Shown: in pieces, positions 8,565 through 12,225 of the stretch
Position numbering within the stretch: the first letter of the stretch is position 1
Layout: each line of letters starts with the position of its first letter
From: Pseudoxanthomonas beigongshangi
GTDB taxonomy: Bacteria; Pseudomonadota; Gammaproteobacteria; Xanthomonadales; Xanthomonadaceae
Direction: 5' to 3'
DNA length: 64,000 nucleotides
NCBI RefSeq assembly: GCF_016820515.1
Contig: NZ_JADHDV010000019.1
Span: forward strand, 1-64,000
Program-made: the position numbers and the translations under genes
The notes under the pieces: generated by a model
What the model saw: the letters and a program-made list of their open reading frames with translations, nothing else
The model's database searches: none
Told to the model about the DNA's origin: nothing

Positions 8565-8600
8565 GGCGTGAAGACTGGCGCGTCCCGCCAGCCTCACCCC

Positions 8601-9089
8601 TCACGCGCGTCGCGCCACCAGCGTGATGTGTCCATTGGTTTCCAGCACCGCCAGATGGATCTCGTCGATCGCGTCGATGCCCGCCTCGCGCATCGCCTTG
8701 TCGAAATCCTCGCGGCTGATCAGCTCGCGCCGCAGGACATCCTTGTAAACCTTGCCCTCGCGTGCCAGCAGCACCGGCGAACCTTCCACCAGCGCCTCGA
8801 ACCGGCGGTTGCGCGCCGACGCCAGGCCCACCAGCCAGTTGATCGCCATCAGCGTGCCCGCCAGCAGCAGACCGCCACCCACCGAAGCGTCCTCGCCCAG
8901 CAGCGCGTTCTGGACCGCGTTGCCCAGCAGCACCACCAGCAGCATGTCGAACGAGGTGAACTGTCCCATCGTGCGCTTGCCGGATACCCGGATCATCACC
9001 AGCAGCGCGAAGTAGACGATGACCGCGCGGGCGATGAAGCCCCACCAGGGCATCGAGAGGTTGAACGTCTGATGCAGGAAGGAATCCAT
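8601..9089 (-). CDS. DUF421 (YetF-like) membrane protein
   Basis: 162 residues from MDSFLHQTFNL. Three hydrophobic N-terminal helices are followed by a soluble C-terminal domain of about 80 residues. The family signature R-x-S-GKRTMGQ-x-T and the domain sequence EGSPVLLAREGKVYKDVLRR identify a DUF421/YetF protein. Bacillus members of this family occur in spore and envelope contexts; the function in proteobacteria is unsettled. The ATG at 9089 is preferred to the extended start at 9146, since the extension is not hydrophobic and overlaps the terminator region. It stands alone, convergent with hemF. Confidence 0.85.
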   Translation of the reverse strand: MDSFLHQTFNLSMPWWGFIARAVIVYFALLVMIRVSGKRTMGQFTSFDMLLVVLLGNAVQNALLGEDASVGGGLLLAGTLMAINWLVGLASARNRRFEALVEGSPVLLAREGKVYKDVLRRELISREDFDKAMREAGIDAIDEIHLAVLETNGHITLVARRA

Positions 9090-9144
9090 GTCCAGGCTCC
9101 GTTCGGGTTGCCGACACGTTAGCGTGCCCGGTCTCGAAGGACGC

Positions 9145-9280
9145 ACAAATAAAAAGCCCCGAAGACCAGGGGGAGGTCATCGGGGCCAGGGGAACGGGGA
9201 CCTGGGGAGGGGTCGCCGTTCCGGGGAGATCGCTCCAGGGGATGGGAGAGATCCGCGACAGACGTTGCATCTGTCGCGAG
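9145..9280 (-). ncRNA. Putative sX13-like trans-acting small RNA
   Basis: The roughly 370-bp gap between polA and the YetF-like gene holds an RNA-like unit on the minus strand. It begins with a perfect 5' hairpin (GCGACAGA, 7-nt loop, TCTGTCGC), continues with several unpaired C-runs (CTCCC, CCCC, CCCCTCCCC, TCCCCC) in G-poor context, and ends in a strong rho-independent terminator. The Xanthomonas sRNA sX13 lies, as I recall, downstream of polA, is about 115 nt long and presents C-rich loops that pair with G-rich target mRNAs; this locus fits in position, length and architecture. The boundaries are estimated from a -10-like element and the terminator. No protein-coding signal is seen in this stretch. 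The name is inference; the hairpin and C-runs are directly visible. Confidence 0.72.
9148..9186 (-). terminator. Rho-independent terminator of the putative sRNA
   Basis: On the minus strand GCCCCGA-t-GACC pairs with GGTC-t-TCGGGGC across a C-rich loop, followed immediately by TTTTTATTT. It is the strongest terminator in the neighbourhood and lies about 280 bp beyond the polA stop. Confidence 0.85.
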
Positions 9281-9283
9281 TTA

Positions 9284-9311
9284 TCTGACCATTTCCCACA
9301 TGGATGGTTCG
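9284..9311 (-). promoter_or_regulatory. Sigma-E/AlgU-type promoter for the putative sRNA
   Basis: On the minus strand CGAACC (-35-like, 9311-9306) is followed after 16 nt by GTCAGA (9289-9284). This matches the sigma-E family pattern GGAACT-N15/17-GTCnnA or TCTGA with correct spacing, and puts the start near 9278-9280, at the base of the first hairpin. No convincing sigma-70 -35 exists at 17 nt. The Pseudomonas sRNA ErsA, also next to polA, is AlgU-dependent. Confidence 0.5.
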
Positions 9312-9360
9312 TGAAGATTCCCGTTAAGAATCCGTGGAATTAAGGCCGCATTCATTTTAT

Positions 9361-9376
9361 TGAACTGTCCAGTTCA
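9361..9376. repeat. Perfect inverted repeat between polA and the sRNA
   Basis: TGAACTG-tc-CAGTTCA, 7-bp arms around a 2-bp centre, in an AT-rich patch. The loop is too short for a terminator hairpin, so a dimeric-protein operator is more likely. It sits about 80 bp upstream of the predicted sRNA start. The rest of 9311-9462 shows no gene. Confidence 0.5.
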
Positions 9377-9462
9377 AAAATTGAATCGCACCCTGTTTCT
9401 ACATCCCGCGCGCAAGTTTCTGGTTGTCAACGGGTTTCCGGATTTAGACGTTCAAATCGGTC

Positions 9463-12225
9463 TCAGTGGGCCTGATCCCAGTCGTCGCCGACCCCGCTGT
9501 CGACCACCAGCGGAACGATGAGTTGCGCCGCCGCCGACATCCGCGCGCCGGCCTCGGCCACCAGCGTGGGCACGAAGTCGGCATCGGCCTCGAATACCAG
9601 TTCGTCGTGCACCTGCAGGATCATCAGCGCGCGTTCGCGATGCTCGGCCAGCCACGCGTCCACCGCGATCATCGCGCGCTTGATGATGTCCGCGGCCGTG
9701 CCCTGCATCGGCGCGTTGATCGCCGCGCGCTCGGCGCCTGCACGCTGTCCCTGGGTACCCTTGTTGATGTACTCCAGGTACAGCCGGCGGCCGAACACGG
9801 TCTCCACGTAGCCATGCTCGCGCGCCTGCTGGCGGGTGCGCTCCATGAAGTCGCGCACGCCCGGATAGCGGCTGAAGTACAGCGCGATGTAGTCCTGCGC
9901 CTCGCCGCGGCCGATGCCGAGCTGGCGGGCCAGGCCGAATGCGCTCATGCCGTACATCAGGCCGAAGTTGATCGCCTTGGCCGCGCGGCGCTCGTTGGAG
10001 GTCACGTCCTCCAGTTGCCGGCCGAACACTTCCGCCGCGGTCGCCTTGTGGATGTCGGCGCCCGATTCGAACGCGCGCACCAGGCCCGGATCCTCGGACA
10101 GGTGCGCCATGATCCGCAGCTCGATCTGCGAATAATCGCAGGCGATCAGCTTGCGCCCCGGCGGCGCCACGAACGCCTTGCGGATGCGGCGGCCGTCCTC
10201 GGTGCGGATCGGGATGTTCTGCAGGTTGGGATCGGTGGACGACAGCCGGCCGGTGGCCGCACCGGCCTGGTGATAGCTGGTGTGCACGCGGCCGGTGACC
10301 GGATTGACCATTTCCGGCAACTTGTCGGTGTAGGTGCTGCGCAGCTTGGCCAGCCCGCGGTACTCGAGGATCACGCGCGGCAGTTCGTGCTGGTCGGCGA
10401 TTGCCTCAAGCGCCTCCTCGTTGGTGCTGGGCTGCCCGGTCGGGGTCTTCAGCACCGCCGGCAGCTTGAGTTCGTCGAACAGCAGCGCCTGCAGCTGCTT
10501 GGGCGAATCCAGGTTGAAGCTGCGCCCGGCCAGTTCGGTGGCCTTCTGCTGGGCGGCCAGCATGCGCTTGGCCAGGTCCGCGCTCTGCCGGCGCAGTTCG
10601 TCGCCGTCGATGCGCACGCCATTGGCCTCGATGCGCGCCAGCACCGGCACCAGTGGCATCTCGATGTCGCGATATACGCGTTCCAGACCCGGCTCGGCGG
10701 CGAGTTTCGGCGCCATCACCCGGTGCAGGCGCAGGGTCACGTCGGCGTCCTCGGCGGCGTAGCGGGTGGCGTCGTCCAGCGCCACTTGCGAAAACAGGAT
10801 CTGCTTGGCGCCCTTGCCCGCGACCTGTTCGTACTTGATGGTGTCGTAGCCGAGGAAGCGCTTGGCCAGGCTGTCCATGTCGTGGCGGTTGCTGCCGGAG
10901 TTGTATACGAAGCTCTCCAGCATGGTGTCGTCGGCATAGCCGCCGACCTCCACGCCATGGCGGCGCAGCACGTGCAGATCGTACTTGCCGTGCTGGCCGA
11001 GCTTGCGCTTGCCGGGATCGGCGAACAACGGCGCCAGCCGGGCCAGGGTGGCGGCCTGGTCCAGTTGCACGGGCGCGCCCGGATAGACGTGCCCCAGCGG
11101 CAGGTAGGCCGCCTTGCCGGGTTCCACCGCGAAACTCATTCCGACCAGGTTGGCCTGCATCGCGTCCAGGCTGTCGGTCTCGGTGTCGAAGGCGAACTCG
11201 TCGGCCGCCGCCAGCCGGGCGATCCAGGCCTCGAGCTGGGCCTCGCTCAGGACCGTTTCGTATTCGCCGGGTGCGGACCACGCCGCATCGATCGGCGCGG
11301 CATCCGGCGCCGGCCCGGACACGAAACCGGTGCCGCGCGCGCGGCCGGGTTCCTTCTCCGCGACCGCGCCGGCGGCGGCGCCGCCGTCCAGTTCCTTCAA
11401 GGCCTGGTTGAAACCGTAGCGCGAATACAGCTCGCGCAGTTCGCCGACATCGCGATTGCGCAGCGCCAGCGTCTCCGGCCCGCCGGGCAGCGCCACATCG
11501 GTCTTGATGGTGACCAGTTCACGGTTCAGCGGTAGCCGCGGCAGCGCCGCGCGCAGGTTCTCGCCGATCTTGCCCTTGATGCCGTCGGCGCCGGCGACGA
11601 TCGCATCGAGCGTGCCGTATTCGCCCAGCCACTTGGCGGCGGTCTTGGGACCGCACTTCTCCACGCCGGGCACGTTGTCCACGGTATCGCCCATCAGGGC
11701 GAGGAAGTCGACGATCTGCTCCGGCCGCACGCCGAACTTCTCCATCACCGCCTCGGCCGAATCCATCCGGCTGCCGCTCATGGTGTTGACCAGCGCCACG
11801 CCCGGTCGCACCAATTGGGCGAAATCCTTGTCGCTGGTGGAAATGGTGACGTCGATGCCCTGCGCCGCGCCCTGCAGCGCCAGCGTGCCGATCACGTCGT
11901 CGGCCTCCACGCCTTCAACGCACAGCAGCGGAAAGCCCAGCGCCTCGACGATCCGGCGCATCGGTTCCACCTGCGCGCGCAGATCCTCGGGCATCGGCGG
12001 ACGGTTGGCCTTGTACTCGGGATACAGGGCGTCGCGGAAGGTCGGTCCGCTGGCATCCAGCACGAAGGCCACGTAGTCGGGCATTTCCTTGAGCGTGGCG
12101 CGCAGCATGTTGACCACACCGAACAGCGCGCCGGTCGGTTCGCCGGCGGTGTTGGTCAGGGGCGGCAGCGCATGGAACGCGCGGAACAGGTAGCTGGATC
12201 CGTCGATCAGGACTAGTCGTTTCAT
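9463..12225 (-). CDS. polA: DNA polymerase I
   Basis: 920 residues, close to the 928 of E. coli. Three domains are in order: N-terminal 5'-3' exonuclease (MKRLVLIDGSSYLFRAFHAL through the VEADDVIGT and SDKDFAQLV motifs), 3'-5' exonuclease with an intact acidic Exo I motif (FDTETDSL), and family A polymerase with motif A (DYSQIELRIMAHLS), motif B (RRAAKAINFGLMYG) and motif C (QVHDELVFE). It is thus expected to keep proofreading as well as primer removal and gap filling. It is transcribed away from a DUF2782 lipoprotein gene, a neighbour also seen in Pseudomonas, and towards the putative sRNA. Confidence 0.98.
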   Translation of the reverse strand: MKRLVLIDGSSYLFRAFHALPPLTNTAGEPTGALFGVVNMLRATLKEMPDYVAFVLDASGPTFRDALYPEYKANRPPMPEDLRAQVEPMRRIVEALGFPLLCVEGVEADDVIGTLALQGAAQGIDVTISTSDKDFAQLVRPGVALVNTMSGSRMDSAEAVMEKFGVRPEQIVDFLALMGDTVDNVPGVEKCGPKTAAKWLGEYGTLDAIVAGADGIKGKIGENLRAALPRLPLNRELVTIKTDVALPGGPETLALRNRDVGELRELYSRYGFNQALKELDGGAAAGAVAEKEPGRARGTGFVSGPAPDAAPIDAAWSAPGEYETVLSEAQLEAWIARLAAADEFAFDTETDSLDAMQANLVGMSFAVEPGKAAYLPLGHVYPGAPVQLDQAATLARLAPLFADPGKRKLGQHGKYDLHVLRRHGVEVGGYADDTMLESFVYNSGSNRHDMDSLAKRFLGYDTIKYEQVAGKGAKQILFSQVALDDATRYAAEDADVTLRLHRVMAPKLAAEPGLERVYRDIEMPLVPVLARIEANGVRIDGDELRRQSADLAKRMLAAQQKATELAGRSFNLDSPKQLQALLFDELKLPAVLKTPTGQPSTNEEALEAIADQHELPRVILEYRGLAKLRSTYTDKLPEMVNPVTGRVHTSYHQAGAATGRLSSTDPNLQNIPIRTEDGRRIRKAFVAPPGRKLIACDYSQIELRIMAHLSEDPGLVRAFESGADIHKATAAEVFGRQLEDVTSNERRAAKAINFGLMYGMSAFGLARQLGIGRGEAQDYIALYFSRYPGVRDFMERTRQQAREHGYVETVFGRRLYLEYINKGTQGQRAGAERAAINAPMQGTAADIIKRAMIAVDAWLAEHRERALMILQVHDELVFEADADFVPTLVAEAGARMSAAAQLIVPLVVDSGVGDDWDQAH

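Follow-up and report, generated by a model that had tools for sequence, protein, structure and literature searches.

The closest described relative of the locus analyzed here is sX13, a small RNA known in Xanthomonas, Xylella, Stenotrophomonas and Pseudoxanthomonas, always behind polA, and presented as exclusive to the Xanthomonadaceae in the accessible text of PMC3771888 (Schmidtke et al. 2013). The Xcv RNA measures 115 nt, the same as the annotated form; its expression is described as constitutive, with higher levels at 37°C, under NaCl and in MMA. It represses G-rich targets independently of Hfq, with a role in planta for loops 2 and 3 and repression conferred by G4 motifs close to starts, and its 5′ 14 nt are dispensable for the plant phenotype (PMC3771888). 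Spot 42 is likewise encoded behind polA; it requires Hfq according to PMC3771888. ErsA of Pseudomonas aeruginosa is 132 nt long (PMC5819304), is sigma22-dependent and raised at body temperature (PMC7565897), and is predicted to bind anr via a U-rich unstructured domain (PMC8575079).

The RNA behind polA in our window (the whole 64-kb stretch of Pseudoxanthomonas beigongshangi DNA that was analyzed) is the sX13 of a Pseudoxanthomonas, as shown by a covariance model, polA synteny, three stems with C-rich loops, and a terminator. The reading that best explains the data as a whole, to which we assign a probability of roughly three in four, is a sigma-E-driven, earlier-starting Pseudoxanthomonas sX13 that belongs to a wider family of RNAs with C-rich loops. 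A first-pass annotation had called an sX13-like small RNA behind polA and suggested a search of the region with the Rfam sX13 model; the match, at 98.6 bits (E 1.4e-17) against Rfam's own gathering threshold of 50 for RF02232, makes the call stronger than it was first put. It is the sole Rfam match in the window at gathering thresholds and the single sX13 match in the whole genome; alpha-r14 (RF02344) reached 24.8 bits at this locus against a threshold of 58.8, and anti-hemB (RF02837, threshold 49.5) had no match in the window. The RNA lies 200 nt past the last PolA codon, on the same strand, and is followed by a YetF-like gene whose PF20730 YetF_N domain scores 24.1 bits, under its cut-off of 26.5 (Table 1). 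The further suggestion that the locus extends the family outside plant pathogens is not news, since Stenotrophomonas maltophilia and non-pathogenic Pseudoxanthomonas were already listed in 2013 (PMC3771888). A literature search that covered few subscription papers returned PMC3771888 alone for a small RNA "downstream of polA", and prior description elsewhere is possible.

Table 1. Features of the sX13 locus and its flanks (positions in the window).
Feature	Position	Strand	Basis
polA, upstream, same strand	9463..12225	−	ORF; DNA_pol_A 522.6 bits
Putative −35 GAACCA, sigma-E-type	9305..9310	−	Likeness to GAACTT / GAACCT (PMC4229105)
Putative −10 TCAGA	9284..9288	−	Likeness to TCTCA / TCTTA (PMC4229105)
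Inferred transcription start region	9276..9278	−	Spacing from putative −10; repeat pairing drops nearby
5′ inverted repeat CGCGACAGA-TGCAACG-TCTGTCGCG, perfect 9-bp; inferred 5′ hairpin of primary transcript	9254..9278	−	Co-varying arms
sX13 small RNA (RF02232, model positions 1-115)	9150..9266	−	Covariance match, alignment and fold
Loop 1 CCCC	9238..9241	−	Unpaired in MFE and centroid folds
Linker CCCC, between stems 1 and 2	9223..9226	−	Exposed in MFE fold
Loop 2 CCCC	9204..9207	−	Exposed in MFE fold
Intrinsic terminator stem-loop, then T-run	9155..9187	−	Scan and fold
Loop 3 CCCCC, within terminator hairpin	9169..9173	−	Exposed in MFE fold
YetF-like gene, downstream	8601..9089	−	PF04239 YetF C-terminal domain 49.7 bits

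The predicted fold is far more stable than expected from composition, with a minimum free energy of −53.1 kcal/mol against −35.4 ± 3.1 for shuffled sequences (z −5.72), and none of 200 shuffles was as low. Like Xanthomonas sX13, the RNA matches the model over its full length, is polA-linked, and folds into three stems with C4, C4 and C5 loops and a terminator. Two structural claims of the first-pass annotation, that at least four C-runs lie outside stems and that the terminator is strong, hold in this fold: four C-runs of at least four are unpaired, one of them in linker 1 and the others in loops, and the terminator stem is followed by a T-run. The extra exposed CCCC in linker 1 sets this copy apart from Xanthomonas sX13, being absent from the aligned Xanthomonas copies, and it is variable inside Pseudoxanthomonas. 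Conserved pairing among related polA flanks, on which that annotation had staked its reading, is present. In alignment A2, a hand-picked set of 31 well-aligning Xanthomonadaceae sequences, 94.5% of cells are paired and 17 of 39 pairs have changed on both sides, which none of 500 shuffles reaches; stem 1 (helix 2) is 84.7% paired and has no pair with a both-sided change. RNAalifold did not recover stem 2 from 65 sequences aligned plainly with MAFFT, and this approach was replaced by A2 and by model-guided alignments, of which A3 and A4 are model-fitted.

Within the family, sX13 matches were found in 142 of 149 genomes (E up to 0.001), 113 of them over the cut-off. Across the order, 70 of 200 genomes matched, and 34 of these belong to other families (7 above the cut-off, 27 below), mainly the Rhodanobacteraceae (Luteibacter, Frateuria, Rudaea). 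For comparison of flanks we used rows that represent part of these matches, with the orientation of L001-L030 set by the count of C-runs against G-runs. In 113 of 132 rows the RNA follows polA on the same strand; of the remaining 19, 4 have less than 1 kb of upstream contig and several represent second copies at other sites. Among rows from other families, fetched from 27 of the 34 genomes, 21 of 30 are polA-linked. A candidate degenerate copy in a genome of the same genus (G117) was dropped, as its match sits at a contig end.

Upstream of the RNA in the window lies the motif GAACCA-N16-TCAGA. It is similar to two sequences given in the accessible text of PMC4229105, the sigma-E consensus of X. 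campestris (GAACTT/TCTCA) and a site of S. maltophilia (GAACCT/TCTTA). A strict form of the motif, GAAC-N16..18-NTC[TA], occurs in 56 of 87 Xanthomonadaceae rows outside Xanthomonas (window included), in 3 of 21 Rhodanobacteraceae rows and in none of 5 Xanthomonas rows. The total, 59 of 113 rows, compares with a shuffle mean of 1.03 and a maximum of 5, in shuffles that keep base composition only and for related sequences, so that such values are not probabilities. Many Rhodanobacteraceae rows that lack the strict form have CAACTT or AAACTT instead. RpoE is encoded in this genome (352.8 bits). From this motif, we consider it likely on balance that sX13 is driven by the envelope-stress sigma factor RpoE/sigma-E, and such control would make the RNA a repressing arm of the stress response. 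The published rise of sX13 at 37°C and in salt parallels the temperature response of ErsA, which is no proof of sigma-E control. In the literature search, with its limited coverage of subscription papers, sX13 and RpoE were named together in one paper, once each.

The five Xanthomonas rows (L002-L006) have neither GAAC nor NTC and read GATC..TTATAT where the window has its sigma-E-type motif, a difference that points to a possible switch of sigma factor. The absence of the strict motif from these rows fits the constitutive expression of sX13 reported there, and the same copies lend some weight to a different reading, in which an ordinary sigma-70 promoter (GATAAC here; CATATAG or TTATAT in relatives) drives the RNA and the sigma-E look is incidental. 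TATAG following GTC in many copies would also agree with a sigma-70 promoter. We nevertheless regard this as unlikely, though it is the strongest of the alternatives, because no sigma-70-type site passed a scan of positions 8600-9800 and because GAAC and NTC[TA] recur class-wide at a fixed spacing, in 57 of 85 loci.

The position of the motif bears on where the transcript begins. The motif ends 17-20 nt before the annotated start, and at this spacing A9266 is too far away to be the start. An inverted repeat straddles A9266, the annotated 5′ end, and its standing as an RNA hairpin thus depends on where transcription truly starts. The 5′ hairpin of the first-pass annotation is accordingly upheld in part: the perfect 9-bp repeat exists, and it forms an RNA hairpin only if the start lies upstream of A9266. 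With 12 extra 5′ bases the minimum free energy falls to −70.0. Most copies have an inverted repeat upstream of the annotated first base. This evidence lies outside the Rfam sX13 model, and the repeat is also present in Xanthomonas DNA.

The arms of the repeat co-vary. In 113 polA-linked rows, taking the better of two registers and dropping L076 (less than 50 nt upstream), all 7 positions pair in 83 rows, 6 in 26 and 5 in 4; the mean of 6.70 out of 7 compares with 5.25 when partners are swapped (maximum 5.54 in 2000 swaps), and at single offsets the main one gives 5.79 against 1.35-3.62 for the others. Of the 18 rows without polA, 12 have 6 or 7 positions paired and 5 have 2 or 3. The 5′ helix (helix 1) is paired in 99.1% of cells on A2, with 5 of 7 pairs changed on both sides, and in 93.5% on the model-fitted A4, with 7 of 7 so changed. 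GCAA is found in the 5′ loop of all 31 A2 sequences; we discarded it as a mark of the wider family, since only 15 of the 85 class loci have it in or beside the loop. Moving outward, pairing in the register with a 7-base loop goes from 82 of 88 rows at −10:+11 to 60 at −11:+12, 24 at −12:+13 and 67 at −13:+14, and in the 8-base register from 22 of 25 at −10:+10 to 7 of 25 at −11:+11, a drop that falls near the start predicted from the promoter.

An alternative is that transcription does begin at A9266 and that a dimeric regulator binds the palindrome, as a DNA operator, over the start site. The published length of 115 nt in Xcv fits this, as does a symmetric repeat near a promoter. A fixed binding site, however, would not be expected to appear as 33 distinct arm pairs that keep their complementarity across 113 rows, and the conserved promoter-like elements are too distant from A9266. 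Mismatches also favor G-U over A-C on the sX13 strand, a strand asymmetry that a DNA operator does not predict: the ratio over distinct arm pairs is 12:3 when 6 positions are counted (22:5 over rows; 22:6 on A4). The bias weakens as more positions are counted (16:8 at 7, 24:10 at 8), which leaves the operator some room. Weighing these points, we judge an operator rather improbable and hold that transcription probably starts near 9277, not 9266, with a primary RNA that begins with the 9-bp hairpin; the annotated 5′ end, inside the hairpin loop, would then be a processed end. The RNA extends over 9150-9266, or over about 9150-9277 if the start is as we infer. What is new here is probably a transcript that begins about 10 nt earlier than described, with a hairpin outside the Rfam model.

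Relatives of sX13 look more widespread than has been described. A covariance model built from the 31 Xanthomonadaceae sequences (R1) was searched at E up to 0.05 against named PolA loci. It matched 35 of the 37 that were grouped with the Xanthomonadales by label or rank (L131-L164, L166, L168 and L176) and 15 of the 43 others, the latter always on the polA strand; Salinisphaera shabanensis and Endozoicomonas sp. G2_2, both among these 15, have three copies each. By eye, a promoter-like GAAC...NTC pair lies just upstream in 20 of the 24 printed matches. A second model, R2, which was trained partly on polA-linked gammaproteobacterial loci, was run against 369 genomes of the class and matched 105 at E up to 0.001; 100 of these lie outside the order. 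We examined the best match of each of 85 of these 100, the 15 left out being among the weaker; at least one of the 85, L307, is not independent of a training locus (L206). PolA lies within 1.5-2 kb in 51 of the 85 loci, and in 48 the match is on the same strand and downstream; 34 have no polA nearby, 3 of them with less than 1 kb of contig upstream. The strict motif precedes 57 loci and is missing from 28, against a mononucleotide-shuffle mean of 0.84 and a maximum of 4; among 845 other windows, 14 have it. In 60 of the 85 loci a 5′ stem of 6 bp or more is present, against a mean of 11.5 and a maximum of 21 in 20 shuffles that again preserve base composition only. In loci with both motif and stem, the latter starts 6-10 nt past the TCW of the −10 element in 38 of 46 cases. 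A search of the phylum matched 11 of 299 genomes, of which 3 are labelled outside the class (E 6e-5 to 5e-4; the outside-class share of the 299 is unlisted).

That these matches are convergent or generic, no more than C-rich hairpins and a terminator behind polA, is a notion to which we give little credence. Terminators do add to scores, Spot 42 reaching 16.5 bits, and the 34 loci without polA nearby sit well with such a view; yet a genome-wide search lands near polA in 51 of 85 cases and behind the motif in 57, the Xanthomonadaceae-only R1 reached its 15 of 43 other PolA loci on the polA strand every time, and an unrelated-DNA control, made up of 127 kb of hfq, pilJ and sigma-factor loci, gave 0 even at E up to 1. 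It is highly likely, as judged from these comparisons, that sX13 is one branch of a family of C-rich-loop RNAs in many Gammaproteobacteria, often polA-linked and with a sigma-E-type promoter. At gathering thresholds, an Rfam scan of 80 of the 85 loci (L338-L342 left out) gave a family overlapping the match in 4 and left 76 unnamed, with RF02232 itself matched in none of the 80.

The family that overlaps in those 4 loci (L269, L273, L307 and L316) is anti-hemB (Burkholderia RNA 7, RF02837); in L286 it lies about 100 nt beyond the sX13-model match, with no overlap. Overlaps of anti-hemB with sX13-model matches downstream of polA were also seen in three named PolA loci, L190 (3978-4072), L199 (3287-3385) and L206 (4098-4197). 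RF02837 and RF02232 may be related; Rfam keeps anti-hemB as a separate family, with no clan shown.

ErsA presumably sits beside polA as well, and we take a locus of Pseudomonas sp. A-1 (L171) to be its place. With filters off, R2 gives a full-length match of 133 nt there at 31.1 bits, twice the best score elsewhere in 12 loci (15.5 bits), and with default filters it gives none at this place. A sigma-E-type motif starts 23 nt past the end of the PolA match, and the R2 match follows just after. The analogy with ErsA, first drawn by position, thus gains the unfiltered score and the motif, with no match at default filters; a distant relationship between sX13 and ErsA is possible, set against the weak score and the U-rich domain through which ErsA is predicted to pair with anr. 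A phage search with this presumed ErsA-place DNA found nothing, and our literature search, covering few subscription papers, found no paper naming both RNAs. The parallel that was drawn with Spot 42 is not supported: that sX13 here is a Spot 42 homologue, as its identical place behind polA might suggest, is extremely unlikely, given no Spot 42 Rfam match in the window and an R2 score for Spot 42 in its own region (16.5 bits) that is close to the 15.5-bit background and comes without a sigma-E motif.

A more ambitious synthesis places sX13, as the Xanthomonadaceae branch, in a family of envelope-stress (sigma-E) small RNAs that spans the Gammaproteobacteria, was ancestrally encoded behind polA and is characterized by a 5′ hairpin and C-rich, anti-Shine-Dalgarno-like silencing loops; Rfam sX13, anti-hemB and Pseudomonas ErsA would be separately named pieces of it, and Xanthomonas would secondarily have lost sigma-E control. 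We put the chances of this at about even. Such a family would be a counterpart, in other lineages, of the enterobacterial sigma-E RNAs. If the comparative evidence stands, sX13 becomes a sigma-E RNA open to testing, the 5′ end mapped for it should be examined again, and Rfam at gathering thresholds has no name for most of the wider family (76 of 80 loci). Three RNAs that now carry separate names could be connected in this way, and many gammaproteobacteria that have received little study could gain a candidate post-transcriptional arm of envelope stress. The co-varying 5′ repeat, the sigma-E-type motif and the class-wide relatives appear to be new.

With respect to function, the exposed C4 and C5 loops would pair with G-rich stretches at or near translation starts and would thereby repress translation without a need for Hfq; by analogy with Xcv, this is very probably how the RNA acts. 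The G-rich targets proposed in the first-pass annotation fit the mechanism published for Xanthomonas. This genome encodes Hfq. The hfq ORF itself reads AAGGGG, with GGGG at nt 9-12, and matches the published hfq site. The site is not shared by all relatives: GGG encodes Gly4 of hfq in 11 of 28 sequences, against 24 of 227 other Gly codons; we rejected this conservation as proof of a target site, as GGA is enriched at Gly4 too (9 of 28 against 8 of 227) and start-codon context may explain part of the effect. GGGG also stands 10-13 nt ahead of the ATG of a putative pilG, so named for its motifs and its position upstream of pilI/pilJ-like ORFs; no separate pilH was seen at that locus.

Additional copies of the RNA were encountered at several loci. 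Neighboring sX13-like copies near polA number three each in L198, L201 and L156 and four each in G489:C33 and G596:C8; a sigma-E-type pair precedes each printed copy in L198 and L201 and two of the three in L156. A gammaproteobacterial match with a sigma-E-type motif, L185 3993-4109, is found by R2 and not by R1 at E up to 1. Three genomes, G002 (L036/L057), G110 (L071/L072) and G004 (L073/L074), carry two sX13 matches each, with polA absent from the flanks retrieved (2 kb; 853 nt for L071 and 1750 for L072), and in these the RNA seems to have moved or been duplicated. In one genus of Rhodanobacteraceae, diverged second copies (L112, L115 and L116) likewise have no polA in the fetched flank, and the copy in L115 has a GAAC element upstream.
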